From contig NC_134029.1 of the NCBI RefSeq assembly GCF_964204645.1, forward strand, positions 16,138,450 to 16,202,449: DNA of 64,000 nucleotides, given 5' to 3'. The DNA comes from Tubulanus polymorphus. Taxonomy: Eukaryota; Nemertea; Palaeonemertea; Tubulaniformes; Tubulanidae. Made by a program: the position numbers and the translations under genes. Positions 23,117-58,697 of the stretch are shown here, in pieces (within the stretch, counting starts at the first letter, position 1; each line of letters opens with the position of its first letter). The notes beneath the pieces were generated by a model. It did not search any database. It was given only the letters and a program-made list of their open reading frames with translations, and had not been told where the DNA came from.

Positions 23117-23226
23117 GGTTGGGTTAAGGCCATACGTCATCACAAAGATTTAACTTTCATTCAACTTAGTGATGGTAGTTGCTCTTCTGATCTGCAAATT
23201 GTGTCAAGAAAATCTCTTGTTCCAAG
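23117..23226 (+). CDS. NARS2: NARS2-like exon (OB-fold), mitochondrial asparaginyl-tRNA synthetase
   Basis: Asparaginyl-tRNA synthetase charges organellar tRNA-Asn with asparagine in the mitochondrial matrix. This exon encodes 36 codons plus two bases, beginning GWVKAIRHHKDLTFIQLSDG and ending SLVP. That is the anticodon-binding OB-fold strand pattern GW-x-(K/R)-x-(I/V)-R-x2-K...F-x-x-(L/V)-(S/N)DGS of AsnRS/AspRS. It is preceded by a polypyrimidine tract and CAG acceptor (23101-23116) and followed by the donor AG|gtagga. It ends in phase 2, which fits the single leading base of the exon at 53166. The upstream exon with the start codon and transit peptide was not found. Confidence 0.85.
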
Positions 23227-23674
23227 GTAGGACAAGGTACTATCTCTGAGTAGGTGGGACAGTGTACGTGTCTTGATTCACCCCTGCATGCCTGCATTCA
23301 GGTTCTCATGCAGGGCTGCCAAGTGTTCCGATTAAGGCGGAATCGTTTCGATTCGGCCAATGAAAATACATGTACACCATTCCGACCGGGTTAGAAAAAA
23401 TACAATCGCAAATTCCATCGCAAATGTCCCGATGTCCCGAAGATGGTTTTCAAAATTACGATTTTCATTTTAAAACTTCTTCATATCCTGATAATGTCTA
23501 TGAAATACACTAAATCAAATACATTTGATGGAAGAAAATGTTACGGAAAAAGCGTGACTCAGTAAAGAAGTGAATTGAACCGACTTCGTTCAACATCAAC
23601 AGTATTCATTTTTGAATTGAATGGAATTGGGTATTATCAGTTTTGGTCGGTAATTAGCTCAACCAACAACAAGA

Positions 23675-24055
23675 TGACAGACGCTTGGCCGGAGAGCGAT
23701 TCGCGATCCGCCGAAGAATCTGTCGCTAAGACTGTTGGCCCAATGTCGAAAAAGAAGAAACGAATGCAAAAATTTCGAAAAGCTTATAAGGTGGCCTTTC
23801 TATGAATAGCTGAAAGTAAACGCGGAGTTTACTTTGCTTGCGTTCTGTTCATCTCTTGGCATTGACTTCAGCATCGCTCCACACGGCGGCCTTGATGACG
23901 TTTTTCGTCCAGACTCAGAGGAACTGGGGGTAATAGGGCTGAAACCTTGTTAACATTTTTCCTGGTTGAACACAATCTGCCCCTGGCTGCAGTTGATCAT
24001 GTGAGAGAACTATTCAAAGAAATGTTTCCCGGTCATAAAAATTTTATGAACTATC
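23675..24055 (+). pseudogene. hAT/DUF4371-like transposase N-terminal fragment
   Basis: Three pieces in different frames follow one another on the plus strand. The first is KKKKRMQKFRKAYK (23755-23797). The second is FCSSLGIDFSIAPHGGLDDV (23838-23905), which resembles the C-x-x-C...DFSIAHGG-x-DV zinc-binding segment of ZMYM/hAT-like proteins. The third is FLVEHNLPLAAVDHVRELF, then KEMFPGH (23960-24050), the usual conserved helix after it. Frameshifts separate the pieces and no catalytic domain follows. It lies just downstream of the NARS2 exon at 23226. Confidence 0.6.
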
Positions 24056-24059
24056 ATTG

Positions 24060-24840
24060 TGTGCATACTAAAACTTCACATATAGTTCGCGCTCACCCTA
24101 GAATGATATTTTAGCAGGTTCCTATTTGACCCCTCAAAGTTCATCCTAAGATATCCGTCTGTCCCTATCTGCGTAAGGACAAGGTTTGCAGCCCCGCTCA
24201 TGCTCAATGCAGCTTTCAATCTGCAGTCTGTAACACCTACCACCTTGACAAACTATGGCTATCCTTGTAACCCATACGTCAGATGGAAATGGCCACCATG
24301 TGGTAGGGTCCTTCAAACTGGTTTAATTTCCTAAATCTCCATTACAGTAGCAGTACGCCTGATGATGGCTAATTGTATTTAGATAAAACATTGCTCAAAA
24401 TAAAGTCATTTTTATATAGAACTTTCATCTTTGGCTGAATTCATTGTGGGATTTCTCACGTTCTTACAGATCTATATATTATTGTAAGGTATTATTGTAA
24501 ATCACCGGAATGCAAATTACAAGTGCAGCTTGATCTCAAACCTGCGATGTGCAAGACAGGCACGCTAGACAATCAAGTTTAATCACTTAACTCGAAGAAC
24601 CATTATTTGTAGCTTAGATCAGTATAACAAAAAACCAGGGTTCAGACATTTAACTGGTTTTAGGGTACATCATATTGAAAAGAATCGATGCTATCAGAGT
24701 GCTATAATTGATTCGAGCGTTTATTACCAATTTGTTGTGAAATCTGAAAGAGGATACATTTTTTGTTCAAAATCAGGGTGTGCATGAATAATAGTAATAA
24801 ATATAGCTGCAAAGCAGCGATAACCGGTTTTCTGCTGTCT
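24060..24840. other. Unassigned non-coding sequence
   Basis: I see no gene, repeat array or splice-supported exon here. Confidence 0.4.
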
Positions 24841-25100
24841 TAGAATCCTGTTCATCGGTGGATTTCGACAAAGCATTTGATAAGGCACAACATCAGCCAT
24901 TACTAACTAAACAGGCTATTAGGAAACAGTATCGATGATAGGTCGCCCAAATGGCTCAGCAGTTATCTCTGAACGAAAACTTTGAGCCAAAATCAACGGA
25001 ACGGCTCATCTTGGAATAAGTCGGTCTAACTAGTGGAGTCACGCTAGGTAGTATCCTAAGTCGTCTACTGTTTAATGTCCTGACTAAGTAATCCAAATAC
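24840..25100 (+). pseudogene. LINE reverse transcriptase scrap
   Basis: VDFDKAFDK (RT motif A, about 24858) and GVTLGSILSRLLFNVLTK (motif B, about 25035) lie in order at the expected spacing, with several stops and frame changes between them. It is a very degraded non-LTR fragment. Confidence 0.65.
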
Positions 25101-25274
25101 TTAAAGGATTGTGCGTGCCTATGTATAGTAAGTAAAATATCGCTAACTAAAAACTTGAAGCGAGAGATTTTTATTGCAAATGAACTAGAACATGGCGGAT
25201 TTAGGTTCCAATTTCCGGTTCTGACTAGCGCCATCAAACGAGTAATTCAAGAACTTGAATTTGTCGATATCCCG

Positions 25275-26046
25275 TATTGGCCTAATTATTCAAAAGCTAA
25301 TAAAGTGGGCGACAAAACCAAAAAAATGAATTGTCCCGGGCGATGAAACCAAAATAATCAATTGTCGCGGGCGATAAAACCAAAATATTGAATTGTCGCG
25401 GGCGACAAAACGAAAAAAATGAATTGTCGCGGGCGATAAAACCAAAATCTTGAATTGTCGTGGGCGACAAAACCAAACTAATGAATTGTCGCGGGCAATA
25501 AAACCAAAATAATGAATTGTCGCGGGCGATAAAACCAAAATAATGCATTGACGCTGACGATAAAACCAAAATATTGAATTGTCGCAGGCGATAAAACCAA
25601 AATATTGAATTGTCGCGGGCGACAAAACGAAAAAAATGAATTGTCGCGGGCGATAAAACCAAAATCTTGAATTGTCGCGGGCGACAAAACCAAACTAATG
25701 AATTGTCGCGGGCAATAAAACCAAAATAATGAATTGTCGCGGGCGATAAAACCTAAATAATGCATTGACGCTGACGATAAAACCAAAATATTGAATTGTC
25801 GCAGGCGATAAAACCAAAATATTGATTTGTCGCGGGTGACAAAACCAAATTAATGAATTGTCGCGGGCGATAAAACCAAAATAATGAATTGTCGCGGGCG
25901 ATAAAACCAAAATAATAAATTGTCGCGGGCGACAAAACCAAAATTATTGTTTTGTCGCGTTATTTTAGTTTTGTCGTTTTGTCATTATGTCGCCCTCATT
26001 CGCATATTCGTGTTTTTTTTACGCATGGCCCTTATCAGCCACCATA
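25275..26046 (+). repeat. 31 bp palindromic minisatellite element, copy 1
   Basis: About 21 units of 31 bp lie between 25305 and 25975. Each carries TTGTCGC-GG-GCGACAA or a decayed form, a 7 bp stem with a 2 base centre, followed by AAACCAAAATAATGA. A unit with tgcattgacgctgacgat recurs at 25543 and 25760, exactly 217 bp (7 units) apart, so there is a higher-order repeat. The flank cattcgcatattcgtg...gcccttatcagcc is shared with copies at 55.7 and 57.0 kb. Confidence 0.92.
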
Positions 26047-26049
26047 CTA

Positions 26050-28662: not shown

Positions 28663-29147
28663 ATTACAAGAATAAACGATGTCATTAACAAACCCCTCCC
28701 CCAACCCCCTTTGATTAGACTCATGCAAAAATTGGAACAATTGATTTTTAGCCCACTTGGGACTTTAGTCCCAACGGGCTATTGTGTGCACTTTTTGTCC
28801 GTTCGTCCGCCTGTAGATGGAGTCCAGTTATTTTGGGAAGTTTTGAAGACGCTTCAATGTAATGTCTTGATATTTGGTTTATACATGTATCTACCCTAGA
28901 CACATCTTCAGCCCAAAAACTGGCCCTCTCAGATTCAAGATGGCCGACTGGCAGCCATTGTTGTTTGCCAAAATCAGCACTTTTTACACATTTTTGAAGT
29001 TTCCGAGGGAAAATTTGAAGACCCTTTTATCAATTACCTTGATTGTTCGTATATATTTGTATCCCCCAAGGGCCCATCAGCACGAGAAAAATTGGGTCGA
29101 TCAGATTCAGAATGGCTGTCCTGTGACCTTTTTTGTGCCCAAAAATG

Positions 29148-29198
29148 AACATTTCATGTTCAGGTAATTTTAGTTATGAATTAGAGAATTCTAATTCA
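29148..29198 (+). repeat. Copy of the NARS2 exon/intron boundary from 54.45 kb
   Basis: catttcatgttcaggtaatt and the following tagttatgaattagagaattctaattc match 54447-54496, including the last 17 exon bases and the donor site. The match continues into the adjoining GCCCACTTGGGA-family copy, so element and flank were duplicated together. Confidence 0.85.
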
Positions 29199-29719
29199 TT
29201 TTTAGCCCACTTGGGACTTAAGACGGAAGACGGAATCCAGTTATTTTGGGAAGTTTTGTAGACGCTTCAATGTAATGTCTCGATATTTGGGTTACACATG
29301 TATCTACCCTAGACACATCGCCCAAAAACTGGCCCTGTCACAATCAAGATGGCTGACTGGCAGCCATTGTTGTTCACCAAAATCAGCACTTTTTACTCAT
29401 TTTTAAAGTTTTAAACGGCAATTTTGAAGACGCTTTAATCAATTACCTTGATCTTTCATATATTTTTGAATCCCCCAAGGGCCCATGAGCATAAGAAAAA
29501 TTGGATCGATCAGACTCATGATAGCCGTCCTTTGACCTTGTTAGTGCCCAAAAATGTCAATTTTGGCCGGGATTCTGGGTCCTGTAGCTTCCTACGGGTT
29601 TGCCATTTCTCATTGCAAATTGTGACGGGTATTTGGAAAGGGATGTATTATACCTGAGACAGGTATTTTTAATCAGTCAATTATGACACAATTGGCGGCC
29701 ATCTTGGTGTCATCAGTAC

Positions 29720-30231
29720 TCATTCGTAGGTGGGAAAAAGTTTTTCGACATTCAATTGATACCTAAGCTGTCCAAAATGGCTCCTGTGACTTTTTTTGTG
29801 CCAAAAAATGTCAATTTTGGCCTGAATTCTGAGTCCTGTAGCTTCTAATGGTGTGCCATTTTTCATTGCAATTTGTGATGGGTATTCTTTGGAAAGGGAT
29901 CTGTTATACACCAGACAGGTATATTTGATCAGGCAATTATGACACAATTGGCGGCCATCTTGGTGTCATCAGTACTCATTCGTAGGTGGGAAAAAGTTTT
30001 TCGACATTCAATTGATACCTAAGCTGTCCAAAATGGCTCCTGTGACCTTTTTTGTGCCCAAAAATGTCAATTTTGGCCTGAATTCTGAGTCCTGTAGCTT
30101 CTAATGGTGTGCCATTTTTCATTGCAATTTGTGATGGGTATTCTTTGGAAAGGGATCTGTTATACACCAGACAGGTATATTTGATCAGGCAATTATGACA
30201 CAATTGGTGGCCATCCTGGTGTCATCAGAAC
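29720..30231 (+). repeat. 256 bp tandem duplication
   Basis: Two copies almost identical over 256 bp; cgacattcaattgatacctaag occurs at about 29748 and 30004. It lies inside copy A of the GCCCACTTGGGA family. Confidence 0.9.
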
Positions 30232-30759
30232 TCATTCGTAGGTGGAAGAAAGTTTTTCTATATTATATTCGTACCTGTGCACATTTTGTTACCACAATCA
30301 ATTGGAAAGTTGTAGCTCATGACATGGTCTATGATTGTGGTAAGTTTCAAGGACATTAGTTATTCTATATGGTCACTAGGGGGCGTTGAATAGTAGAATA
30401 ACTTAGTATTTCCTTATTATATTGGTACCTAGGCATATTTTGTTACCATGATCAATTGCAAAGTTGTAGCTCATGACATGTTCTATAATTATGGTGAGTT
30501 TTAAGGTCATTGGGCTTTCCATATGGTCACCAGGGGGCGTTGAATAGTAGAATCACTTAGTATTTCAATATCATATTGGTAACTAGGCATATTATGTTAC
30601 CACAATCAATTACAAAATTGTAACTGCTGGCATTTTCTATGATTTTGGTGAGTTTCAAGGTCATTGGATGGGGCGTTGAATATTGAAATTGTTAGATTGT
30701 TGAGCATCCGAAACCACTTCCCAAGTGGGCATGGTGTCCCTGGACCTCTAGTCTAATGA

Positions 30760-31821: not shown

Positions 31822-33996
31822 TCAAAAACCATCAAATTCATCTTCATCATTATCATCACTATCAGTGCCAAGACCAAATAATTTCATTAGCTCCTCACTG
31901 GTGGAAGCAGACATTTCTTTTGGTGAAGTGCTAGCAATAGAAATCTCTTCTTCCACGAAATCATCAGCCTCATCATCAGTGATGTCTAATGAATCAATAT
32001 CTTCAGTCTGAACAGATACTGAGCAGACTGAAGATGCAACTGATGCAGTGGAATCCATGGTCACAGTTTGATTCTGCTGTTTTGGTAACTTTCGCCTAGT
32101 TTTACTTGAGAGCCAATGATCAACAGCTTTGTTGATTATTGAACTTGCTTGATCAGATTTAGGGCCATTGATCGAAACCTGCATCAGTGCATTGAGAACT
32201 TTATTAGGCATCCTGTTTCTTGCTTTGGTTTTTATGCGTTTAACGGCACTAGCACCCCTTTCAGGCCACGCATTTGAAATAGGTGCAGAATGCACTATTT
32301 CTAATAACTGGGTTATGATAGGGTAGAAATTACTGTAGGTGACATAAGAAGAAAACACTTTATCACATAATCTCTCCAGGGGGGTTTCAATTTCAATTGC
32401 CATATCACTATGTTTTGGCTTTTTTGATTTTTTTGCATTTTTCTTACATGAACTTTTTCTCTGTTTTTCTTCTTTGATACGAGCCTCAATTTTGTTTTGT
32501 TTCAAAAGTTGGTATTTAAAGCCATCATACTCCAAGTGTAATTTTCTACTTTTGTCATTATCACCTGGGAAGAAATGATTAGCAATTTCAGGTAACTCTG
32601 CTTTCCCATAGGAACTAAATTCAACTGTATGCTCATCAGGAATAAGTGTTGGATCGAATATTCCAAATGCATCTAATACGCCAAGACATCCTTCAAACCT
32701 GGCATCAATATTGTCAATCACCGACAGTTTGTATTTTGAATACAGATTCACAAGCCTTTTTTCAGTCGTTTCGTTTAACTGAAGTTCTAAAGATTTAAAG
32801 ATCCCATCATCAGCTATGTCCCTTTTCAATTTGATGATTGGATCAGGCTCAGACACTATCTTGTTTTTGGCAGCAGCAAAGCTGGCTTTAGCATACTGAA
32901 ATTTAGTTCCGAAGCCTGGAAGCAACGACTGAGAGATGCCAGAACTGGCACAATTACATTCAATATGTAAAGAACCCCAAGGCTTTTACTACTGTTTAGT
33001 TGCGCAAGAGGCCTATTGCTAATGGTTCATCTCTCTCTTCTTTCTCAATACATAGTGTTTGTAAAACCGCTACAAAATTTGATAATAGGGATACTAGAGA
33101 TTGTTCAATCGATAGCCATCTTGTCCTACATGCTTTCCTAATTTTAGTACTGACAAAATCTACAGAATTTGAATCTACTGCCATGGCCTTCAACTGGCTT
33201 TGAACTTTGACAAGATTTGATGTCCTTCTAGGACTATTTTCAAAAAATCTCCAAATATTTGTTAACAATTGGACAGCATTTTTAATCATATCTAAAGACT
33301 GATCAGCATCAGCACTTGCCAAGGCTTTTACTACTGTTTAGTTGCCGCAAGAGGCCTATTGCTAATGGTTCATCTCTCTCTTCTTTCTCAATACATAGTG
33401 TTTGTAAAACCGCTACAAAATTTGATAATAGGGATACTAGAGATTGTTCAATCGATAGCCATCTTGTCCTACATGCTTTCCTAATTTTAGTACTGACAAA
33501 ATCTACAGAATTTGAATCTACTGCCAGGGCCTTCAACTGGCTTTGAACTTTGACAAGATTTGATGTCCTTCTAGGACTATTTTCAAAAAATCTCCAAATA
33601 TTTGTTAACAATTGGACCGCATTTTTAATCATATCTAAAGACTGATCAGCATCAGCACTTGCCAAAGCCAGTTTGTGGCAAATGCAATGGATTGACAACA
33701 TAGCAGAGTTGAATTTCCTTTTCAACTGTACAGCTACCCCATTGTGTTTGCCAGTAAACGTAGAAACTCCATCAGAGACAAAGCTTGTCATCATGCCTCC
33801 ATCCAAACCATTGTCCTCGATTACTGAGGTAAAGGCTTTAACAATATTATCAGCATTTGCAGAGCCAGTCAACTCATCAATGGTCAAAAAGTTAGTTTGG
33901 GATTTACATGACCTTGACACTGCCCTAATGAAAGTAACAAGCTGCTCTTTGACACTAATGTCACTAACTTCATCAGTCAATAGACCAAACACACGG
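31822..33996 (-). pseudogene. hAT transposase catalytic and C-terminal region
   Basis: This continues the protein from 36241 after an insertion. It shows the first catalytic Asp block (RVFGLLTDEVSDISVKEQL), the second (FVSDGVSTFTGKHNGVAV), the insertion-domain CxxH (SIHCICHKLALA), RTRWLSIEQSL and the C-terminal dimerisation block (NAWPERGASAVKRIKTKARN, then LNALMQVSINGP). An acidic, Ser-rich tail follows. The family resembles KIAA1586/ZNF862-like hAT proteins. Breaks: a 343 bp tandem duplication (32976-33318 against 33319-33661), whose left copy has lost one base (ttgcgcaag for ttgccgcaag), and a frameshift near 32870. After the latter the 367-codon frame 32925-31822 runs cleanly to its stop. 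Confidence 0.88.
32976..33661 (-). repeat. 343 bp tandem duplication in the hAT gene
   Basis: Two adjacent copies of 343 bp are nearly identical, differing by one indel and two or three substitutions. The duplication breaks the hAT reading frame. Confidence 0.92.
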
Positions 33997-34000
33997 TTAT

Positions 34001-36236
34001 TAGGCCAGCCGTAGGCTGAGCCTATTACTATACAAATGGAGCGAATTTAAATGACATGGTTTCCACACAAAAGGCTCTTTTGCTTGCCAAGTGAGGGCAT
34101 ATTCGAACAAATCACGTATTTAAGCGTAATCCATTCTCGGAATCGTAGCGAGCAGAATTTTGAAATAGGGTCTCATAAAAATGTTTTCTGCATTTTTCAC
34201 GAAAGTTAAATCGGGAAAATTTCAATTTTTATCAGCCAATCAGGAGGTTGTGTCTTCCCTGTGATTGGTTTATCTGAAAATATCAGCAGCTGTTCACGTG
34301 AATTATCGCGATTTCATTACTGGCGCTTTTGCGCATGACGTCATGTATCAACACGCGACAATACTTCCGCGTTTGCTACGTTTTCGCTGATTGGCCCATT
34401 TACTGGGAAATTCCACAGAAGCCTAATGTGGTTTGTTACAAGCGCTGTGATTGGCCCGACCCGATTCTGGCATGGCTTTAGCTTAGTGGGTTCGAATCCC
34501 TTGACGGGTGAAGATGATGGATCCTATCAATATCTATTGAAACAAATAAGTTTCCCGGTTGGGCAGCCGCGGATATCTACCGGAAGTGTTCCGGTTCGAT
34601 ATTTCGAGGTTTCTTTGAATTTTGGAGTGATATTGAAATCCGGTAAATACCAGCGGTAGATTGTGAAAACCCATTGCATGATATTTGTATTACTTAATCA
34701 ACGAAAAGCGTCGGGGCCGCGCCAGGAGTTTTCGTGATTCAAGTAGCGCAATAGCCTACTTCTTCGTGTTCGTCCACCTCAATTTTCACTCCGCCGATCT
34801 CTGACACGGCTCTGTCCCCGTCGGCGCTGTGATTGCACTTTCGTACCACCAAACTTTTTTATTTCTATATCAGGGAGGTCTGGAGAATAAAAAAGTCAAA
34901 ATTTGGATATCACATAGGCCTGATTTCATCGAATAAGTCGACCATGGTCGTTACGTTTCCGTACTTATTACCACCTAAAACCGTCTGAACAATTTTGTCA
35001 CAACCAACATTTCGTTTACAGAAATCAGGTGTTCATGTGAATCCGCGGTATCGTCTACTGTTTTACTTCCGGGTTTTATTTTAAGATTTAAAATTGTATT
35101 TCAAGATCGATTTCTATGAAATCTTTAGTTGATTTGGTGTTTGGGAGGAATTTTTATTTGCTCTACAGAAAATTCATCCTTGACAATTGCGCAAGGTTCG
35201 CGAAAAAAAGGTTTTACCAAATCGGGTGTATGACCTTGATATGCTAATTAGCCATGTGCCCGAATTGCAAATTCAATCAAATTTTATTCTGCCAAAAAAT
35301 GTTAAATACAATTCGCTTTCCGAGAGTTAATGGTATGCTGCATGGAACAAAGTTGTTTTGAGATGGGTCTTGAAGCTATTGAGGTCGAGAGATAACCATC
35401 TAGATAGTTCGTGAGAGTTCCAAAGTTTTGAAGACGCTTCAAGGTAATGTCTTGATATTTGTTTTATACGTGTATCTACCCTAGACACATCTTCAGGCCA
35501 AAAACTGGCCCTGTCAGATTCAAGATGGCCGACTGGCAGCCATTGTTGTTCGCCAAAATCAGCACTTTTTACACATTTTTGAAGTTTTCGAGGGAAATTT
35601 TGAAGACACTTTTATCAATAACCTTGATCATTCATATATATTTGTATCCCCCGAGGGCCCATCGGCATGAGAAAAATTGAGTCGATCGGACTCAAGATGG
35701 CCGTACTGTGACCTTTTTTGTTCCCAAAAATGTCAATTTTGGCCTGAATTCTGAGTACTGTAGCTTTCTAATGGTGCGCCATGTTTCATTGCAATTTGTA
35801 ATGGGTATTCTTTGGAAAGGGATCTTTTATATCCGAGAGGGTATTTTTGACCAGGCAATTATGACGCACTTGGCAGCCATCTTGGGGTCATCAGTACTCA
35901 TTCGTAGGTGGAAAAAAAGTTTTTCCACATAATAATTGATACTTAAGCATATTTTGCTACTATAATCAATTGGAAAGTTGTAGCTCATGACATGTTCTAT
36001 GATCGAGGTGAGTTTCAAGCTCATTGGTTTTTTTTATGGCCACCAGGGGGCGTTGAACAATACAATAACTTAGTATTTCTATATTACATTCGTTCCTGCT
36101 GTCTGTGTTAACACACGATTTTACTATGTAAATGATATTGAGCAGGGAGTTTATATTGATAAATATAACCCACAGATTACATCATTTATAAAAAGCAAAT
36201 CTGACAGGCTGGCCATTGTGCCCCTTGGGGCTCTTG
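34001..36236 (+). mobile_element. Hairpin-ended insertion in the hAT gene
   Basis: It starts TAGGCCAGCCGTAGGCTGAG (imperfect hairpin) and ends GCCCCTTGGGGCTCTTG (perfect palindrome plus tcttg). TTAT stands on both sides (33997-34000, 36237-36240). Removing the insert and one TTAT joins SQIKDN to RVFGLLTDE in frame. Inside is a truncated copy of the GCCCACTTGGGA family (about 35420-36100), and the rest is non-coding. It has no transposase of its own. Confidence 0.7.
35420..36100 (+). repeat. GCCCACTTGGGA-family copy E (both ends missing)
   Basis: The match to copies A and D runs from aagttttgaagacgcttcaa to agggggcgttgaacaataca. Neither terminal hairpin is present. Confidence 0.8.
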
Positions 36237-36674: not shown

Positions 36675-36891
36675 TGTCGGGAATTGTTATATGTCAGTTA
36701 CCAGTAACTCACTCCCCTCAGTTCATGTAACCCCGCCTATGTAAGCCCCGCATGAACTTATGCTGTAGCGAGTAGATAAATAAATCAGAGTTTACTTAGA
36801 CACCAAACATATTGGTCGTTGTTCACCTCTCCGGCGGTCTTGCTTATTTTACTCAAACCTGGACCATTTAATGTGGCAATCATAGCCCACA
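36675..36891 (+). repeat. 5' LTR
   Basis: TG...CA ends, with gtagataaataaatca as a possible TATA/polyA region. ttttggtgccgtgaccagga follows directly as primer-binding site (36892-36911). Confidence 0.95.
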
Positions 36892-36944
36892 TTTTGGTGC
36901 CGTGACCAGGATATACAAGCAGTAAATTCGGAAACTCAGCCAAG

Positions 36945-38197
36945 ATGCCGTCGAAAGAAGAGATAATGCGAAATGCGCAAATTCGACAGATGACGAAACT
37001 TTTTGATCAGGCGAGGGAGTTACTTCATTCGGAAAGTGACGAAAGCCTAGACAAATTGTCTGGCGTCATAACTAGAATACGTACAAAATTGGAAGTTATC
37101 GCAGGATATGATTCGGAACTGATTGCGAACGCAGAGTTAGGGAAACTCGAAGACCTCGTGTGTGAAACCGATGATTATATGAAGGAAATAAACATTGAAC
37201 TATCAACCTTCATCGGATACCTCGAACGGAAAAAGAATCAAATCGAACCGACAACGCGCATGAAATCCGAGCAACAAAAAACTGCGAAAAGACCGATCCA
37301 GTTGCCGAAGTTATCTTTGCCAACATTCGATGGCGATATTCTGAAATGGCAAACGTTCTTCGATGGGTTTTTCTCGGCAGTTGATAGTGATGAGAACTTA
37401 ACGAATATCCAAAAGTTCCAATATCTGTCGGCACAGCTAAAGGGCGACGCTGCAAAAATGATCGAAAACCTGAGTTTAACAAACGAAAATTATAATCAAG
37501 CTTTGGAACTTTTGTTAAACCGGTACGGGACACCACACAAAATTGTGGCCGCATACATGAAAGCGTTGTGGGAGCTTTCACCACCGAGTGATGGCGACAA
37601 CTCACTACGGAATTTCTATGACTCTCTGGAATCTTATATTCGTGGATTAAATCCACTCGGAAAATCCGAAGAATCGTACGGAGATCTGTTAGTACCCATC
37701 ATAATGGAAAAACTGGCGAGCGGAACTAAACAACAGATTACCAGAGACCACGGTAACAATGCTTGGAGCCTGACTGATCTAAGAAAGTCACTCCTTAAAG
37801 AAATTGAGGCCTTCGAGGCTAGTATCGAAAGCCTTACGATAGAGGATGATTTTCCCGCCAATTCGCCGACCGTGGGAGCGTTCGCAGTAACGGCGAAAAA
37901 CAGACATAATTTTTCACGGAAAACGATCGAAAATGTGCGTTCTGCAAAAAGATCAATCACGTTGCGGTGGACTGTAGAACGTTTCCAGATGCTGAAAAAC
38001 GCAGAGAAATTGTTGATAGGGATAATCTATGCTTTAATTGTCTCTCAAGCGGTCACAAATCGACAAAATGCTTATCGAAAAACAGATGCAGAGTTACAAA
38101 CTGCGGCAAAAAGGATCACACATCAGTTCATTTAGATGCAAAATCAACCACACCTGTGGTCGCAAAATCAACCGATGAGAAAGCTGACAGGGATTGA
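36945..38197 (+). pseudogene. BEL/Pao gag with zinc knuckles
   Basis: It starts at ATG 36945, 33 bp after the primer-binding site. It has coiled helices, then the DUF1759 block (LPKLSLPTFDGDILKWQTFF, FQYLSAQLKGDAAKMI, YMKALWELSPPSD). A frame change near 37935 moves the reading to the frame with the zinc knuckles: a C-x2-C-x4-H-x4-C near 37940 and CFNCLSSGHKSTKC at about 38030. A stop at 38198 follows, and the protease continues in another frame. Confidence 0.9.
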
Positions 38198-38227
38198 CAT
38201 CAGTATCTGGGCGCCGCCGATGGAACA

Positions 38228-42470: not shown

Positions 42471-42687
42471 TGTCGGGAATTGTTATATGTCAGTTACCAG
42501 TAACGCACTCCCCTCAGTTCATGTAACCCCGCCTATGTAAGCCCCGCATGAACTTATGCTGTAGCGAGTAGATAAATAAATCTGAGTTTACTTAGACACC
42601 AAACATATTAGTCGTTGTTCACCTCTCCGGCGGTCTTGCTTATTTTACTCAAACCTGGACCATTTAATGTGGCAATCATAGCCCACA
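42471..42687 (+). repeat. 3' LTR
   Basis: Same length as the 5' LTR with three substitutions, preceded by the purine run gggagaa. CTGGT follows immediately. Confidence 0.95.
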
Positions 42688-43439: not shown

Positions 43440-44744
43440 TGTTGTTTCAGACCATTTAAAGATAGATCACACTGACTTAACAAGTCCAAGTGTGGAGATA
43501 GGTTGTATCTTAAAGGGTCTGTCAGTGATTTCAGGGACAACATAAAAAAATTTCCAAATTGAAGCATACCCAATGGGTAGTTTATTTCATCATGCAAAGT
43601 TTGAGTTCTGGAAATAGCAGCACTGTTGGTATGATATCACGGACAGGCCCTTTAAGAAAACAAAATAAGTGCATGTGCAGTACAATTTCAGACAGACAAC
43701 AACAACAGACAGACATGTTATTTTATATGAATATAAATAATATGAAACAAGCAGACCACCACCTGACAGTATTATAATCTTACCATACTCAGCTGACCAT
43801 ACTACGTCTAGCCCCCAAAAAAAATAATTTTAAATCTATACGCCTCCTTAATTTGTCGAGGGCAACAACTAGTCTTAAATAGGTCCACTCTTATCCATTA
43901 ACTGAAACTGTGATTGTGAGAAGAGGACAACCACTAACTCGTTTGACTTTTTTTAGTTATAAACTTGTGTCTGACAGGCCTGCTAAGCAGAAAAATCACT
44001 GTTCTGTCAGAGAAATAGGATTAAAAATAATGACACACTGAAGAAATCCTTCTGGTTTGGGCTATATCATGAGGTATTAAACATCGTTTAATGTTTTTTT
44101 CGAGCAGTGAATAAACTACTTAATTTGAATTTGAATTTAAGCCTGTAGCTTTTTTCGTCGTCGCCGCCGATAATCAGAAGCAATGAAAGGGATGTAGACC
44201 TGTCAACTGATTAATTGAAATTCTACTACACATTCGGCGATTTAATTCAGAAAAATATCAAGAACATACGTTTAAAATACTTCAAAATCCCTGGCGAATT
44301 CATGGAATTCCGCTTCATGTTTGATGTTCACGACGACTCGTTTCACTTCCGCGTCAGTCGTATTCTTAAACGGCCGTTCATTGGACGAGACCAGACGAAA
44401 TGCCATTTCACAGACGATTTAAACCAATCAAAATGCGCGATACATCCGGTGACATCGGTCATACTATGTAGCGTTAGAAAACGATCTAGCGCTTAGAATG
44501 CGAACGAAAAATCGCATCGGGTTGAAAAAAGTTGTCGGGTCCGATTTTACAAGTTGTCGGGACTTTGACCCGGGACCCGGCTTCTAATGCAAACACTGGA
44601 TTGATACAATATCATTTCGCAAAAGAAATTGAAAAAACGAGTGCGATTGAAATAGATATAATTCCTTATTGACTATCAAACAACAATTTTTATAAGATTA
44701 ATCATTATTTACTATTCTTCTTGGGAACAAGCTTTATGCCTTTT
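43440..44744. other. Non-coding sequence upstream of the hAT locus
   Basis: It may hold the promoter and first exon of the hAT gene, but I could not fix an ATG. A frame on the plus strand at 44215-44496 shows no family. 44540-44590 has a repeated ttgtcgggtcc / ttgtcgggac motif. Confidence 0.4.
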
Positions 44745-45362
44745 TAGCCCACTTGGGACTTTAGTCCCAGCGGGCTATTGCATTCACTTTTCGTCCGCCG
44801 TTCATCCGTCCATCCCTTCTTCCGTCCGTCCGTAGACGGAATCCAGTTATTTGGGAAGTTTTGAAGATGCTTCAAGGTAATGTCTTGATATTTGGTTTAT
44901 ACATGTATCTACCCTAGACACATCTTCAGCCCAAAAACTGGCCCTGTCAGAATCTAGGCCGACTGGCAGCCATTGTTGTTTGCCAAAATCAGCAATTTTT
45001 ACATGTTTTTGAACTTTTTGAGGAAAATTTTGAAGACGCCTTCATCAATTACCTTGATCTTTCGTATATATTTGAACCCCGCCAGGGCCCATCAGCATAA
45101 CAAAAATTGGGTTGATCGGACTCAAGATGGTCGTTCTAGGACCTTTTAAGTGCCCAAAAATGTCAATTTTGGCCCTAATTCTGAGTCCTGTAGCTTCCTA
45201 CTGGTTTGCCATTTCTCATAGCAATTGCTGATGCTTACCTAAGCATATTTTGTTTCAATAATGAATTAGAAAGTTGTAGCTTATAACGTGTTCTATGATT
45301 GTGGTGAGTTTCAAGTTCATTGGTTTTTGTATATGGCCACCAGGGGGCATTGAATAATACAA
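44745..45362 (+). mobile_element. GCCCACTTGGGA-family copy C, left part
   Basis: The left terminal hairpin (TAGCCCACTTGGGACTTTAG) is followed by the gtccgtccgtag tract and the body up to ggggcattgaataatacaat. The copy is cut there by the LINE and resumes at about 50498. Confidence 0.85.
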
Positions 45363-45649
45363 TATATATTCATTCTTTATTTTGCTAATAAACATGAATT
45401 AAATATAAATTACATAATTTTTTTTTTTTATACATATATTAGCAGGGTAAACCTGTTAAAAGTTTTCACTTGTAGCAACAGGTACCCCAATACACACTTC
45501 ACTCTCGCCCACACATTCATACTTTCGCATTCACACATGATTTTCTACTGCTACAGTAGGCTTACAAAAATAGGTATATAATAGTAAGATGATATAGGTA
45601 CAGTTACATTGTTTGAATAATTCATTGGGGTTTCTTTTATTGATAATGA

Positions 45650-48600
45650 TTAATAATTACTAATTATGAATTCCTTATAAGCTGACTTAAAGATCTCTAG
45701 GGAAGGTGATGATTTGAAAATATTACTCATTTCATTCCAAAGTTTTGGGCCATTGTAACTAAGGAAATTTCGGCTAAAGTTATTTCGGCAAAAGGGTAGT
45801 ACAAAATAGTTTGTGTGGCAGGTTCTGCGATTTCTGTTTAACTCGAAGAAGCCATTGAATACATCTGGTAAAAGGTTTGATACATACATGTACATAAATT
45901 GGGCAACTTGTAATTTGTTAACGTCATCTGCTTTTAGACTATTTACATCTTTAAATAATGGGCTAGTATGTGCTTAGTAGTGGGTTTTAGTTATAGTTCT
46001 GATTACCTTTTTTTGAAGAAGAACAATCCTATTTAAGTTAGTGTGGTGGTTTCCCCAGACAATATTACAATAGTATATATGTGGATATATCATAGTATAG
46101 TATAGTTCAATAAGAATCTTCGTGGGCAAGTATGTTGCCAGTCTGCAGATGATACCAACATGTTTCGAGATTTTTTGAGAAGTTTGCTAGATATGTGGTT
46201 TCCAATTGAGGTCTTCGTCAATATATACACCTAGAAATTTGGAGTAAGGCAGTTTTTTTAAGATGTTACCATTTAAAGAAACATGTAAGTCAGGTTTTTT
46301 TCTAGCTGTGCTGAATATAAGATAACGTGTTTTTACTAGATTAAGTGATAATTTGTTTGCACAGAACCAGATGAATAGCTTTCCTAATTCTTGATTCACA
46401 ATATTTTCAAGGATATCAGGGTTTCTATGACTAGCAAAAGTGTTGGTATCATCCGCAAACATGATAAATCTAAAAATTTCTGAAGCATTTGTACAATCAT
46501 TTATATAAAGAATGAATAATAAGGGTCCTAGTATAGAGCCCTGTGGTATTCCACAGCTTATAGTTCTTGGGGTAGAAATACAATCTTTATATTTTACAGA
46601 CTGCTGCCTATTAGTTAAGTAGTTTTTAACCCATAATAGTGCACTTCCTCTAATGCCATAATGTTCTAGTTTGGGAAACATAATTTTGTGGTCAATCGTA
46701 TCAAACGCTTTAGATAAATCTAGAAATCTAGGGTTTCTATGACTAGCAAAAGTGTTGGTATCATCCGCAAACATGATAAATCTAAAAATTTCTGAAGCAT
46801 TTGTACAATCATTTATATAAAGAATGAATAATAAGGGTCCTAGTATAGAGCCCTGTGGTATTCCACAGCTTATAGTTCTTGGGGTAGAAATACAATCTTT
46901 ATATTTTACAGACTGCTGCCTATTAGTTAAGTAGTTTTTAACCCATAATAGTGCACTTCCTCTAATGCCATAATGTTCTAGTTTGGGAAACATAATTTTG
47001 TGGTCAATCGTATCAAACGCTTTAGATAAATCTAGAAATATACCAACTGTTGTTTCTCCTTTAACTAGCGTTTCGATAATCTTATTAGTTATAAAAGTTA
47101 ATGCCATTGCCGTTGAATGGTTTCGTCGAAATCCAAATTGAGAATCACTTAACACTTTGTGTCGATGAAGAAAACGATTGATACGGTTGTACATTATTTT
47201 TTCCAGGATTTTTGAAATACAGGGTAGTATAGATATGGGCCTATAATTGTTGAATTGTTCTTTATCATCTTTTTTATGTATAGGGATGATAACAGACATT
47301 TTCATACTTTCCGGTATTTTTCTGGAGTTTAAGCTACAGTTGAAAATATGCATTAGAGGAGTTGATATAAGTTTAATTACGTTTTTGACGATTTTCTGAC
47401 TAATATTATCAATTCCGCAGCTATGTTTGGATTTGAAGTTCTTCACAATCATTTTGATTTCTTTCGTAGTTACTGGAACTAAAAATGCACTCTCGAAAAT
47501 TCTGTTGGTTAAAAAAGAATCAAATTTTGTTTCCGTGAAAGGTATTTCATTGGCCAAGCATGGACCAACATTTATAAAAAAATTATTAAATCGTTCAGCG
47601 ATTTCTTGATTATTTGTTAAGAACCCGTCTACATCTTTCTCAGGATATTCATTTTTGGTATTTTGTTTATTCATACAAGATTTAATAGTTTTCCAAGTTT
47701 GCTTATGATCATTTGCCGATTCCTCGAACTTTCGAATATAGTATATTTTTTTGCTTCTTTCAGACAATTATTGAATTTATTACGGTAATTTTTGTAAAGA
47801 TAAATAGATGCAGGGGTCTTATTATGGATATATTTCCTGTACAAAAGTTTTTTTGTTTTAAAGATGCTAGGAGACCTTTAGTCATCCATGGATTTTTCCT
47901 GTCTTTATACATATTGAATTTTCTATGCTCAATATTAAAACAGTCATCATATAGCCGTTTGAATTTTTCAACAAAATTGGTATATGCTAGGTCAGTGTCA
48001 TTTTGGAGTAATATCCCATGCCAATTTTCTGTCATAAGCCGCCTTCTAAATAAGTTTGTATTTCTGTCTCAATAATTCCTATAGCTGATAAATTTGGGTT
48101 TCACATGGGTGATTTTCATATCAATAGTAGTGAATATTGGCATGTGATCAGAAATGTCGGACATCAATATGCCTGATTTGCTAGTACAATTAAAGTTTAT
48201 AAAAATATTATCTAACAGAGTGGAAGACGTGAGTACGAGTTGGTTTATCTATAAGGGGAACAAAATTTTCACTGGAGAGACAAGAAGTAAAATTATTAGT
48301 CGGTATATACTTGTCGTTCAAAATATTTATATTAAAGTCCCCATGAGAATCACTCTATCAAAGTTAGATAATTTATCTAAAATGGTAGAAAATTCCTCTA
48401 CGAAATTATTAATATTCAGATTTGGCGGTCTGTAGAATAAACCAACTAGGAAATTTTCTTTTGATCCTGGGCTATATATTTCAATCACGTGAAACTCCAT
48501 GGACCCAGACTCAATGACTAAATCAGATCTAATTTGATAATTAAAGTTGTTCTTCATATAGAAAACTAATCCACCTCCTCTACTATTATTTTTTCTGCTT

Positions 48601-49091: not shown

Positions 49092-50045
49092 CGGTATGTA
49101 GAGTTGAAGTTTCTCTTTCTTCTGATTTCCCGGCCTAACCGCATAAACATTACCATTTACAGTCCATACATAAGAAAAAAGTTTACTTTTCACGGCGCGA
49201 TTTACTAACTGCAAGATTTCGGGGGCTAGGTCTTCTTTTATCGTTATTCCTGTGTCATTGAAAAGTTTTTTGTTGAAGTAGACGTTGTTGCGGATTTCAC
49301 GGTTGGTGAATCTTATAATTATGCTATCAGCTTATGTTGATTTTTGCCTGCTAGGCACACGATGTGCTATATCGATATCTTTGCATTTGATGTGTAAGTC
49401 TATGTTTTTCTCTCTGAATTTATTGTTGATCGTTGACATGGAGGTTTCCTTACAATTTTCGTTTTTTTCTTTCTGCTCTACTCCAAATAGTCTCAAGTTG
49501 TTTCTTCTCGAGTATTGCTCGTTTTCTATAGTTTTACGTTTAATATCCAAGGTTTCGCGTCTTATTTGTTTTTCGAATTCATCACTTGAGGTTTTCGCTT
49601 TTCTAAACAATTCAATTTCCTGCTTTAATATCTTGTTTTCATGTTCGAGATCGTATAGTCTGGTTTCAGTTTGATGAATCATATTTTCGATTTTTCGATC
49701 ATGTGCTGCGATTTTCTTATCTATTTTGTCAATCATCTCATTTTTAAATTCCTCCAAAGACTTAGTTGTAACCATTTCAGACTTAATGTTAGAGACGACT
49801 TGCAAAATCTTTTGCAGGCTTGCTTCATCGGAGATTTCCTCTTCGTCGTCGGTAGCTGTTGATGTTCGCGGTCGGAATTTTTTAACTCTCGGCTGTGTAG
49901 TTTTATTTTTTTCAATCGGTTGCGCAGTTTTTCTACTGTTATCGCTTTCGTTTCCGTCCATTTGGTTACCCGTAGTTCCATTTCCAGAGATAGTTTGTAA
50001 ATCCGGTGATTTTTCAGCAAACTGTTTAATCGTAGTTTGGCTCAT
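49092..50045 (-). pseudogene. LINE ORF1 (coiled coil, L1-ORF1p-like RNA-binding protein)
   Basis: It starts MSQTTIKQFAEKSPDLQTIS. A low-complexity basic stretch is followed by a long coiled coil (DKIDKKIAAHDRKIENMIHQ...LEHENKILKQEIELFRKA). The RRM-like core is QYSRRNNLRLFGVEQK...IDIAHRVPSR. A frame change at about 49330 leads into the C-terminal domain IIIRFTNREIRNNVYFNKKL...GITIKEDLAPEILQL...YVWTVNGNVYAV, ending at 49092. The role in the family is to coat LINE RNA and act as a nucleic acid chaperone. Total length about 315 residues. Confidence 0.85.
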
Positions 50046-50497: not shown

Positions 50498-51024
50498 CGA
50501 TATCTTAGTATTTCTATATTATATTTGTACCAATACATATTTTGTTACCACAATCAATTGCAAAGTTGTAGCTCATGACATCGTCTATGATTGTGGTGAG
50601 TTTTAAGGAAATTAGTTATTTTATATGGTCACCAGGGGCGTTGAATAGTAGAATAACCTAGTTTTACCTTATTATATTGGTACCTAGGCATATTTTGTTA
50701 CCATGATCAATTGCAAAGTTGTAGTTCATGATATGTTCTATAATTATGGTGAGTTACAAGGTTATTGGGTTTTGAATATGGTCACCAGGGGGCGTTGAAT
50801 AGTAGAATAACTTAGTATTTCCATATTAAATGAGTAACGAGGCATATTTTGTTATCACAATCAATTACAAAAACGTAGCTACTGACATGTTTTATGAGTG
50901 TGGTGATTTTCAAGGTCATTGGTTTTTGTATATGCTCACCAGGAGGTGTTGAATATTGAAATTGTTAGATTGTTGAGCATTTGAAACCACTTCCCAAGTG
51001 GGCATGGTGTCCCTGGACCCCTAG
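50498..51024 (+). mobile_element. GCCCACTTGGGA-family copy C, right part
   Basis: It begins cttagtatttctatattata, has three ~165 bp units and ends cttcccaagtgggcatggtg, then tccctggacccctag. It continues the left part at 45362 exactly where other copies are uninterrupted. Confidence 0.85.
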
Positions 51025-53165: not shown

Positions 53166-53286
53166 TGAAGTAACCTTTGGATGCAGTATCTCTGCTGAAG
53201 GATGTTTGGTGCTTAGTAAACATGCAAGGCAGGAAGTAGAAATGAAAGCTGAAAAAGTTTCCATAATTGGGATGTGCAATTCTTTG
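53166..53286 (+). CDS. NARS2: NARS2-like exon (end of OB-fold, linker)
   Basis: The exon is 121 bp: one base completing the codon split from the 23.2 kb exon, then 40 codons. The peptide starts EVTFGCSISAEGCLV and ends MKAEKVSIIGMCNSL. EVTFGCS-x-x-x-x-G followed by (V/E)xMKAEK(V/I)xIIG is the conserved end of the AsnRS OB-fold. The acceptor is ttttctgttttgtag and the donor is ttg|gtgagt. The OB-fold is continuous when joined to the previous exon, which supports a 29.9 kb intron between them rather than a missing exon. Confidence 0.88.
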
Positions 53287-53739: not shown

Positions 53740-53880
53740 GATTATCCTCTTAAACCTAGGACAAGACATAATTTAGATTATTATCGTCAGTTCATTCATC
53801 TTCGTCCGAGATCAAATACATTTAGTGCGTTGTTACGAATAAGAAGTAGTGCCTCTCAAGCGATCCACCGATATTTTAGG
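53740..53880 (+). CDS. NARS2: NARS2-like exon (motif 1 region)
   Basis: Forty-seven codons in phase 0, from DYPLKPRTRHNLDYYRQFIH to LLRIRSSASQAIHRYFR. The pattern DYPL-x5-RH-x-L-x-Y-x-R...LRIRS-x-A-x-x-AIH-x-(F/Y)F is the entry to the class II catalytic core (dimer-interface helix) of AsnRS. Acceptor gttttctag and donor AGG|gtaagt are both good consensus sites. Confidence 0.9.
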
Positions 53881-54381: not shown

Positions 54382-54462
54382 GATCATAATTTTATGGAGA
54401 TCCATGCTCCTCTTATTACGTCCAATGATTGTGAAGGTGCTGGTGAAACATTTCATGTTCAG
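54382..54462 (+). CDS. NARS2: NARS2-like exon (asparagine-specific loop)
   Basis: Twenty-seven codons in phase 0, HNFMEIHAPLITSNDCEGAG then ETFHVQ. The string (T/A)P-L/I-ITSND-CEGAGE is a hallmark of asparaginyl-tRNA synthetases; AspRS and LysRS differ here. The acceptor is ttccattttag and the donor is CAG|gtaatt. The last 17 bases of this exon and about 35 bases of the following intron recur at 29148-29198 inside the giant intron of the same gene. Confidence 0.92.
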
Positions 54463-54501
54463 GTAATTTTAGTTATGAATTAGAGAATTCTAATTCTTTT
54501 T

Positions 54502-55519
54502 TAGCCCACTAGTGACTTAAGTCCCAGCGGGCTATTGCATTCACTTTTTGTCCGTTGTCCGTTCGTCCGTCCGTAGACGGAATCCAGTTATTTTGGGAAG
54601 TTTTGTAGACGCTTCAATGTAATGTCTCGATATTTGGGTTACACGTGTATCTACCCTAGACACATCTTCAGCCCAAAACCTGGCCCTGTCAGAATCAAGA
54701 TGGCTGACTGGCAGCCATTGTTGTTCACTAAAATCAGCACTTTTTACTCATTTTTGAAGTTTTAAACGGAAATTTTGAAGACGCTTTAATCAATTACCTT
54801 GACCTTTCATATATTTTTGAATCCCCCAAAGGCCCATGAGCGTAAGAAAAATTGGATCGATCAGACTGTCAATTTTGGCCGGAATTCTGGGTCCTCTAGC
54901 TTCCTACGGGTTTGCTATTTCTCTTTGCAAATTGTGATGGGCATTCTTTGATTAGTCAATTATGACACAATTGGCGGCCATCTTGTCATCAGTACTTATT
55001 CGTAGGTCGGAAAAAGTTTTTCGACATTATATTGATACCTAAGCATATTGTGTTACTACAATTAATTGGAAAGTTGTAGCCCATAACGTGTTCTATGATT
55101 TTGGTGAGTTTCAAGGTCATTGGTTTTTGTATATGGCCACCAGGGGGCGTTGAATAACACAATAACTTAGTATTTGTACCTATGCATATTTTGTTACCAC
55201 AATCAATTGCAAAGTTGTAGTTCATGACATATTCTATGATTATGGTGAGTTTCAAGGTCATTGGGTGTTGCATATTGTCACCAGGGGTCGTTGAATAGTA
55301 AAGTAACTTAGTATTCCCATATTAAATTGGTAACAAGGCATATTTTTTTATCACAATCAATTACAAAATCGTAGCTGCTGACATGTTATATAATTGTGGT
55401 GGGTTTCAACTTCATTGGTTTTTGTGTATGGTCACCAGGGGGCGTTGAATATTGAAATTGTTAGATTGTTGGCATTTAAAACCACTTCCCAAGTGGGCAT
55501 GGTGTCCCTGGACCCCTAA
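54502..55519 (+). mobile_element. GCCCACTTGGGA-family copy D
   Basis: The left end TAGCCCACTAGTGACTTAAG has a slightly decayed hairpin. There is a gtccgttcgtccgtccgtag tract, body, three ~165 bp units (55010-55460) and the right end cttcccaagtgggcatggtg, then tccctggacccct. It lies 40 bp inside the NARS2 intron after the donor at 54463 and is the probable source of the second copy at 29.15 kb. Confidence 0.85.
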
Positions 55520-55667
55520 TTAGATGAAGATGCAAAAAAAACCATTTCATGACCAATGCGTCAAAGACTTTAAAAAAATAATTGAACCGATGATAACTTA
55601 ATAATAATAACTTAAGTTAATAATAATTGAAAATTGCATATTCATAATGCGTGCACGAATATGAGTA

Positions 55668-56025
55668 TATTATGGCGGCTGATAAGGGCCATCGTAAAAA
55701 AAAAACACGAATATGCAAATGAGGGCGACATTACGACAAAACGACAAAACTAAAATAACGCGACAAAACAATAATTTTCGTTTTGTCGCCCGCGATAATT
55801 CATTATTTTGGTTTTGTCGCCCGCGACAAGTCAATATTTTTGTTTTGTCGCCCGCGACAATTCATTGTTTTGGTTTTGTCGCCCGCGACAATTCATTACT
55901 TTTGTTTTGTCGCCCGCGACAATTCAATGTTTTGGTTTTGTCGCCCGCGACAATTCATTACTTTTGTTTTGTCACCCGCGACAATTCAATATTTTGGTTT
56001 TGTCGCATGCCGCAAATCAATCGTG
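55668..56025 (-). repeat. 31 bp palindromic minisatellite element, copy 2 (inverted)
   Basis: The flank ggcggctgataagggccatc and the units ttttgtcgcccgcgacaatt are the reverse complement of copy 1. It has about 8 units, with the palindrome better preserved than in copy 1. It lies in the NARS2 intron 54463-57205. Confidence 0.92.
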
Positions 56026-56750
56026 ACAAAGTATTGATGCGAATGACCTATTTAGTACATCGACCATGTACCGAACACTATTATTGTGCCCCAGCATTTG
56101 GGGTCATTCTATTTGAACCCCAACATTCCATATGTCCACCAGATTCTGGTCATGATAAAGTCATTTTAATTTTTCTGCCAACCTTATTTCTTATTTCATA
56201 TTCATCTAACATTAAACATCATTAAGTATGCGTCCCCTTATTGAAATTAGGTTAACTATCTCAATATATCAATGTTACTAGGTAGACCTTATTTAAAATG
56301 AGGTGATTTTTATGTCGACTTTTTGCGATATTGTCTCAATAAATTGCCATACGTATAACGACATTTTAGCTAAAGTAGTGATGATTATGTCAACGGTACG
56401 GTTATGTTGAGATACACGCGTCGACATTGGTGAAAGGAGTGATCACCGTATAACGATTTTACGACGTGATATTAACACGATATACCGACTTAGTTATGTC
56501 GATAAATCGCGATATATCACGTTTTTTCGACATAATTTCGTCGTGATAAAAAGTCGCGACGGTTTTGTACGGGTCCCATATAAGCTTCCGTACATCTTTA
56601 GAAAACGAAATAATATGTGATCTTTCATTAAGTAGGATCACTTGAATGATCGCTTTAATATCACTTTATTTAAAAAAAAGAATCTGCCAAAATGACCTTA
56701 ATAATCGACACTATATCAGATTAATCAACTTCAAAATAGGCGAATTACTA
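56026..56750. other. Unassigned intronic sequence
   Basis: 56300-56570 is rich in short tgtcgac / gtcgaca and atatcg palindromes, but no array or gene was seen. Confidence 0.4.
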
Positions 56751-56754
56751 CATT

Positions 56755-57100
56755 ATTAATTGGCCCAATTATTCAAAAGCTAATAAAGTGGGCGGCAAAA
56801 CCAAAAAAATGAATTGTCGCGGGCGACAAAACAAAAATATTGAATTGTCGCGGGCGACAAAACAAAAATATTGAATATTCGCAGGCGAGAAAACCAAAAT
56901 ATTGAATTGTCGCGGGCGACAAAACAAAAATACTGAATTGTTGCAGGCGACAAAACAAAAATAATGAAATGTTGCGGGCGACAAAACCAAAATTATTGTT
57001 TTGTCGCGTTATTTTAGTTTTGTCGTTTTGTTGTAATGTCGCCCTCATTTGCATATTCGTGGTTTTTTTTTACGATGGCCCTTATCAGCCGCCATAGTAT
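56755..57100 (+). repeat. 31 bp palindromic minisatellite element, copy 3
   Basis: About 7 units, in the same orientation as copy 1. Both flanks are shared with copy 1 (aattattcaaaagctaataa on the left; gcatattcgtg...cccttatcagccgcca on the right). The copies have the same ends but very different unit numbers. Confidence 0.92.
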
Positions 57101-57205
57101 ATGCTGTCACTGTAACTTTGTAGTGTGAAACACTAGTGATCTGCCCGCTTGTGCCAATATGAATATATGCTGACATGCGTTACCTAAATTTCTTGTTTCA
57201 TGTAG

Positions 57206-57312
57206 TCTTCAGATGACATTCATAGTAAAAATGGCTTAAATTCAAGTAATTTCTTCGATTGCCCAGTTTTCCTGAGCGTGTCCAAACAGTTACATTTAGA
57301 GGTTATGGCGAG
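57206..57312 (+). CDS. NARS2: NARS2-like exon (pre-motif 2)
   Basis: Thirty-five codons plus two bases. The peptide ends NFFDCPVFLSVSKQLHLEVM, matching FF-x-x-P-(A/V)FL-(T/S)VS-x-QLHLE of AsnRS. The acceptor used is tgtag at 57201-57205; the AG nine bases downstream would put an in-frame stop after eight codons. The donor is AG|gtaagt in phase 2. The stretch before FFDCP is a short, poorly conserved insertion (SSDDIHSKNGLNSSN). Confidence 0.9.
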
Positions 57313-57695
57313 GTAAGTATTGTTGTTTATATTTTGGGGTAACTTTATTAACGATATTGGAGTTGGCATTGAGCTGTGTTTGTCTGGATGAAATTGTGCA
57401 TCTGCGTTTTATTTTGTAATTGGATCCAAGATGGCCGACTGGTAGCCATATTTGAATTTCCCAGCGGGATACAGCCTATAATTCTTGATGAATTTTCATA
57501 ATACTTAGTGAGTTGAGAAGTGTACCCCTATTGAAAATGGAAGTCATCAGCCATCAAATAGCCGCCAGGGAGGCCATTTTGAATTATCTTGTTAGCATCA
57601 TAGAGCCTACAATTCTTGATGGAGTTTCATTAAACTTGCTTTGAGGATTGTTGTTTGTAAGACTTAACACAGTTACCTTCACTAATATTTTTCAG

Positions 57696-57828
57696 TGCGT
57701 TCAGTAAAGTATACACATTTGGCCCAACATTTCGTGCTGACAATTCAGTTACAAGACAGCATTTGGCAGAATTCTATATGGCAGAAGCTGAAATTTCTTT
57801 TCTTAGCTCACTGGCAGATCTCATGGTT
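57696..57828 (+). CDS. NARS2: NARS2-like exon with class II motif 2
   Basis: One base plus 44 codons: [17 protein letters not shown], then [18 protein letters not shown]. This is class II aminoacyl-tRNA synthetase motif 2, where the fRxE arginine contacts ATP and the alpha phosphate. The glutamate normally at FRAE is aspartate here (TTTCGTGCTGAC). RHLAEF is present as RQHLAEF. Acceptor tatttttcag; donor GTT|gtaggt, phase 0. Confidence 0.93.
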
Positions 57829-58267
57829 GTAGGTTATTAATTATTTTTTCGCATTCATTTGCTGGATTATGTACTGTTCATTTATATAAGAAGTGATTGG
57901 ATTATTGATACATTTGTATTAGTAGTTGTTAGTTATCCTTGCATTTTAAAGCACATGGAACACCTGCTTATGAGATTAACCCCTAGCAGCAGATTGTGGT
58001 GACTATCTGGCAATACAGTTCATCCAAGATGCCATAAGTATAGATGTAATAAGTATAGTTCCGTGAAATGAACTTCCCTATATTCATCTGTGTTGTATAT
58101 GAATGATAGTATTAGAAATGTGAAGGGAACGTTTTAAAGATGTATTGAAATATCAGCTTTAAATCAAATGTTAAAAACAGATTTCATTCTCGATAAAATG
58201 ATCAATGAATTGAAATATATCATAGTCACTTCTAAGTATTTGATTTCTGAAAAGTTTTATTTGTATA

Positions 58268-58442
58268 CAGTCAACCTCTGATATACCGCCCTCCCACTTA
58301 CCGCCACCCCTGCTTACCACCAGGTTTTCTCAATGTAGATCTCAATACAAATACATAGTAAAACACCCCGATATACCGCCATACTCTCTATACCGCAAAA
58401 ATCATTCTGCACCAATGTGGGCGGTATATCAGGGGTTGACTG
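58268..58442. mobile_element. 175 bp pogo-type MITE
   Basis: The terminal inverted repeats are CAGTCAACC(T/C)CTGATATACC followed by GCC, 23 bp with one mismatch. TA duplications stand at 58266-58267 and 58443-58444. CAG ends plus a TA target are typical of the pogo/Tigger group. The inside has three more taccgcc motifs. It has no coding capacity. Confidence 0.88.
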
Positions 58443-58595
58443 TATTTTACAGTTTTATACATATTTTGTTTTATACATATTCAATTCGTGTAGACTGATT
58501 TTGGTTATTCTACAACATCATCTTCTCATAGTAATTAGCAGTTTCACACTCACCTCTATCATTGAAATTGTTATCAATCAATTATTCTCTTGCAG

Positions 58596-58697
58596 GAAAT
58601 GGAGAATTTGATGAAATATGTAACGGAACAAATGTTTTTGCATAACGCTGATGATTTAAATCACTTTTACCAGAATATAAGTCCTGAAAATTATGAG
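58596..58697 (+). CDS. NARS2: NARS2-like exon (helical insertion after motif 2)
   Basis: Thirty-four codons in phase 0, EMENLMKYVTEQMFLHNADD then LNHFYQNISPENYE. It continues the helix following motif 2 in mitochondrial AsnRS and is the least conserved exon. Acceptor ttctcttgcag and donor GAG|gtaaaa. No later exon (motif 3, the GFGMGFER-like part) was recognised before the window end, so the gene probably continues past 64000. Summed, the seven exons are 795 bp with all phases consistent and no stop. Confidence 0.8.

Follow-up and report, generated by a model that had tools for sequence, protein, structure and literature searches.

The question raised by this locus is whether seven putative exons of a mitochondrial-type asparaginyl-tRNA synthetase (AsnRS, NARS2), recognised in the window (the whole stretch of DNA analysed here, 64,000 nucleotides long), belong to one complete gene, and how the 29.9 kb between the first two of them should be understood. 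The seven exons are genuine and correspond to exons 2–8 of a larger gene; the raw-sequence reading proved extendable to its full length and a complete NARS2 gene model is now given for this genome (Table 1). It is very probable that this model represents the complete nuclear NARS2, the sole one found, coding for a bacterial-type AsnRS of 494 amino acids with a leader, and that the gap of 29.9 kb represents a spliceosomal intron of the ordinary kind. As far as the letters tell, the gene is intact, complete and nuclear, and an ordinary ortholog of a well-known gene.

Table 1. Features of the NARS2 locus and of two genes used for comparison; positions follow window numbering unless a contig is named.
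Feature	Position	Strand	Basis or remark
Window studied	C5:16138450-16202449		within 268-Mb genome, 77 contigs
Exon 1	-5790 to -5605	+	28.7 kb upstream of exon 2; GTAAGT donor
Exon 2, 110 nt, OB-fold start	23117-23226	+	phase, splice sites; asnS model positions 19-69
Intron 2, 29,939 bp	23227-53165	+	many mobile elements
Exon-5-edge copy, 50 nt, exact copy of 54447-54496	29148-29197	+	flanked by non-autonomous repeat copies
hAT-like transposase pieces, intron 2	31822-34046	- (antisense)	PF05699, PF14291
BEL/Pao LTR element, intron 2	36675-42687	+ (sense)	profile matches, end repeats
LINE reverse transcriptase ORF, intron 2	46187-47767	- (antisense)	PF00078
High-copy non-autonomous repeat	28745-30751; 44741-45394; 50500-51024; 54492-55522; about 75010 onward
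Exon 3, 121 nt	53166-53286	+	phase, splice sites, alignment
Exon 4, 141 nt	53740-53880	+	genome profile search, phase, splice sites
Exon 5, 81 nt, SNDCEGAGE loop	54382-54462	+	genome profile search, phase, splice sites
Exon 6, 107 nt	57206-57312	+	phase, splice sites, alignment
Exon 7, 133 nt, motif 2	57696-57828	+	genome profile search, phase, splice sites
Exon 8, 102 nt	58596-58697	+	phase, splice sites, alignment
Exon 9, 38 nt	69228-69265	+	splice and pattern search
Exon 10	74937-75003	+	alignment scoring
Exon 11	77892-78020	+	read directly
Exon 12	78465-78589	+	read directly
Exon 13	79994-80135	+	read directly
Gene with 64.8-kb inter-exon gap	C7:20313514-20381077		reads as DARS2 (presumed label)
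Gene with 30.7-kb inter-exon gap	C2:14856212-14910825		reads as CCT6 (presumed label); gaps 11-31 kb

Gene model and placement of the exons

The model comprises 13 coding exons over 85.9 kb (C5:16132659-16218584), with 1,482 coding nucleotides plus a stop, that is, 494 codons free of internal stops; all 13 exons are open, the phases agree and GT/AG ends are present at all 12 introns, which measure 28,721, 29,939, 453, 501, 2,743 and 383 bp (introns 1–6) and 767, 10,530, 5,671, 2,888, 444 and 1,404 bp (introns 7–12). When bounded by splice sites and phase, exons 2–8 join into 795 nt, which bears out the seven exons with GT/AG sites, compatible phases and 265 stop-free codons proposed by the first-pass annotation, as well as the 29.9 kb that it saw between its first two exons. 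The first and last exons, which it suggested seeking over a wider region, were located outside the window, one upstream (exon 1) and five downstream (exons 9–13), making the gene larger than first stated, with an extra 28.7-kb intron before exon 2.

A genome-wide search with TIGR00457 matched 7 of the 13 exons (2, 4, 5, 7, 11, 12 and 13), from window position 23105 to C5:16218581, and since all seven lie in model order on one strand, the arrangement is more than chance. This search missed exons 3, 6 and 8, for which phase, splice sites and alignment are the evidence. A single missing exon in the middle was sought by regular expression and in strict phase 0 without success, as in fact two were lacking (exons 9 and 10). 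Three pattern classes yielded 11, 11 and 36 candidates for exon 9, and the one retained, from the third and loosest class, was chosen on splice quality and fit. A first upstream scan of 33 kb with too narrow a pattern gave 10 candidates, exon 1 not among them, and a wider pattern over 53 kb gave 22 and revealed it. Pattern and splice quality thus decided the choice of both exon 1 and exon 9 among their candidates, and the support for them lies in gains of about 11 and 17–20 bits, respectively: TIGR00457 scores 401.7 bits when exons 1, 9 and 10 are left out, 424.6 once exon 10 is added, 441.6 when exon 9 joins it and 452.4 with every exon. The start codon is uncertain, exon 1 offering three ATGs in frame, at residues 1, 7 and 11. 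An additional, unconserved exon may lie inside intron 2.

Identity of the encoded protein

The 494-codon product matches nearly the whole of both curated AsnRS models, NF003037 (467.1 bits, cut-off 414) and TIGR00457 (cut-off 342.6), and its identification as a mitochondrial-type (NARS2) AsnRS, already proposed on first reading, is supported by these scores. In the 265-amino-acid peptide of exons 2–8, the class II (D, K, N) synthetase domain PF00152 reaches 100 bits (cut-off 25), the last exon of this domain having been located by the genome search, and the OB-fold PF01336 remains just below its cut-off of 27 (25.9 bits, E 9.5e-6), in a region covered by the longer AsnRS models TIGR00457 and NF003037. 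With a query lacking exons 1, 9 and 10, the best solved chain is 6pqh (1.2e-75), an AsnRS which we take to be bacterial, and chains named cytoplasmic AsnRS follow far behind (6e-41 to 1e-36). Exon 1 encodes several Arg and, up to residue 47, neither Asp nor Glu, and reads as a predicted leader of mitochondrial type. The gene would be transcribed and spliced across the 29.9 kb, and its product would be imported into mitochondria and be catalytically active, most likely charging mitochondrial tRNA-Asn, with the OB-fold presumably binding the anticodon and the class II core presumably activating asparagine.

No second complete NARS2, which the first-pass annotation had considered as a counterargument, was found in a genome-wide AsnRS profile search whose best candidates were scored. 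Of the eight further TIGR00457 matches, half fall in the gene on C5 (5.470-5.472 Mb) that reads as cytosolic AsnRS; the other four are weak, with E from 3.5e-4 to 0.39, and lie on C3 and C6. A search of genome contigs for relatives, with the 397-amino-acid protein as query, yielded 20 pattern matches, of which none was confirmed.

Contents and length of the introns

Intron 2 would have grown to its present length through insertions of mobile elements. The BEL/Pao element has end repeats of 217 bp, identical at 214 of 217 positions (98.6%), with CTGGT flanking both sides, and the hAT-like pieces match PF05699 above the cut-off (28.4 bits) and PF14291 below it (21.4 bits). The high-copy non-autonomous repeat, presumably Helitron-like, is built of 154/256-bp internal tandem units, ends in a short hairpin and CTAG, and occupies at least 40 full-length places in the genome at 94% identity or more, the query included (40 of 2,532 candidates scored). 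One copy of it starts no more than about 10 nt from the donor of exon 10, and another stops some 32 nt short of exon 9. Intron 2 also holds an array of 21 copies of a 31-bp unit (25307-25959), and the same unit makes up the arms of a foldback-like element with inverted ends at 55674-57093. In intron 1, open reading frames (ORFs) of Helitron-like helicase and replication type (PF05970, PF21530, PF14214) lie on the minus strand at 12530-15561. Near-exact tandem duplications occur within the LINE ORF (46418-47039; 312 nt, 310 perfect) and in the hAT-like stretch (32977-33665; 343 nt, 99%), and both are either recent events or assembly errors.

At least eight transposon families had been claimed for the gap; several are present, of which about five to seven are nameable, by judgement. 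Likewise, the claim that their coding parts are mostly antisense holds by element count but not by length, since 4.96 kb, all from the one BEL/Pao element, are sense and 4.08 kb antisense, in sums over intron-2 ORFs of at least 120 amino acids assigned to elements (including ORF 49332-50045, which we assume to be an element ORF), five others being left out as lying in the tandem array, overlapping counted ones or having no assignment.

The length of the gap was compared with a sample of 78 gaps, the NARS2 pair excluded, that separate adjacent exon hits to PF00118, PF00133 and PF00152. Their median is about 400 bp, some of the small ones (e.g., on C31) falling inside one open frame and not being introns, while 4 of 78 exceed 10 kb and 2 of 78 exceed 25 kb, these large values being upper bounds that may conceal missed exons; the grouping rule also split two genes, dropping gaps of about 12.1 kb (C3:12872323-12884394) and about 0.5 kb (C8). 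The two largest, 30.7 and 64.8 kb, sit in two other conserved genes, and gaps this long are therefore uncommon in the sample and not specific to NARS2. The 64.8-kb gap, whose place corresponds to an insertion in bacterial-type AspRS, probably contains further exons. The idea that long introns are typical of genes for mitochondrial proteins here was dropped, as the C2 gene reads as cytosolic CCT6.

Two other accounts of the 29.9 kb have to be weighed against an ordinary intron in a single gene. Exons 1–2 and 3–13 might not be joined in one transcript, owing to misassembly or rearrangement or because the gene is a relic, and the near-exact tandem duplications within intron-2 elements, if assembly errors, would point in that direction. 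However, the 92 kb holding the gene contain not a single N, phase and protein alignment run on unbroken across the exon 2/3 joint, the open exons and splice sites are consistent throughout the model, comparable gaps exist in the two other conserved genes, and the genome search, which scored its best candidates, turned up no further set of NARS2 exons, all of which renders such a separation exceedingly unlikely.

It could also be supposed that intron 2 is kept long by functional content, such as a nested gene, a structured RNA or recursive splice sites, and the lengths of introns 1 and 2, far above the sample median, would fit this. Yet neither a tRNA nor an Rfam match reaching its gathering score turned up in the window; the Pfam matches of intron-2 ORFs are of mobile-element type save one zinc finger, several pieces being matchless; and a scan of introns 1, 2, 8 and 9 for YAGGTRAGT gave one site only, which lies in intron 1 and has a poor pyrimidine tract. 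Functional retention is thus very unlikely, and the growth of an ordinary intron by mobile-element insertion is preferred.

Intron 2 also carries a copy of the edge of exon 5, made up of the final 16 nt of this exon followed by 34 nt from intron 5, donor included, although the last few of its 50 bases may already be repeat sequence. Beyond these 50 nt, the copy extends into the repeat next to exon 5, with 373 of 389 positions identical over the first eight 60-column blocks, gaps not counted, after which the match weakens. This similarity of the repeat part proves little, since copies of the repeat elsewhere reach 94–96% to one another; the evidence for copying is the exon edge, as the genome search places it twice only, in the gene and in intron 2. 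The left joint lies inside another repeat copy and has no clear homology to exon 5. We infer that the copy arose by repeat-templated break repair and end joining: a break in the intron-2 repeat would have been repaired using the intron-5 repeat as a template, and synthesis would have run back into exon 5 before closing by end joining. That one repeat copy simply inserted into another is less likely, because the remainder of the interrupted copy is absent at 30752, in the stretch examined. It is extremely unlikely that the TTCAG/GTAATT centre of the copied edge is used in splicing, either as an acceptor and donor stepping point for removal of the 29.9 kb or as a decoy donor; if true, repeat-driven repair would have planted a working splice site in its own gene. 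The copied edge represents a small, clean case of a gene piece copied into another intron of its own gene, beside repeats.

Comparison with known synthetases

Conserved genes with long introns filled by mobile elements are a known phenomenon, and a NARS2 with long introns is of an already known kind. Human NARS2 is a bacterial-type AsnRS as well, and its alignment with the product described here shows 216 identities in 444 residues; the human sequence used agrees with PMC4373692 in its length and in residues V213, Y323 and N381. According to PMC4373692, the human protein has 477 amino acids (494 here) and its gene 14 exons, whereas 13 coding exons were found here. That paper places its three NARS2 mutations in exons 6, 10 and 11, and the human residues V213, Y323 and N381 that it names align to exons 6, 10 and 11 of the window gene, Tyr323 alone being identical. 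The leaders of the two proteins do not align.

Cytosolic NARS1 shares class IIb, the OB-fold and the amino acid with the window gene, but in this genome the gene that reads as NARS1 is a separate, compact one (C5:5.469-5.472 Mb), labelled from its sequence and not from a tree, and 6pqh is a far better match to the window gene than are the cytoplasmic AsnRS chains. With bacterial AsnRS (asnS) the window gene has in common the full-length match to TIGR00457 and NF003037, to which it adds an N-terminal leader and 12 introns.
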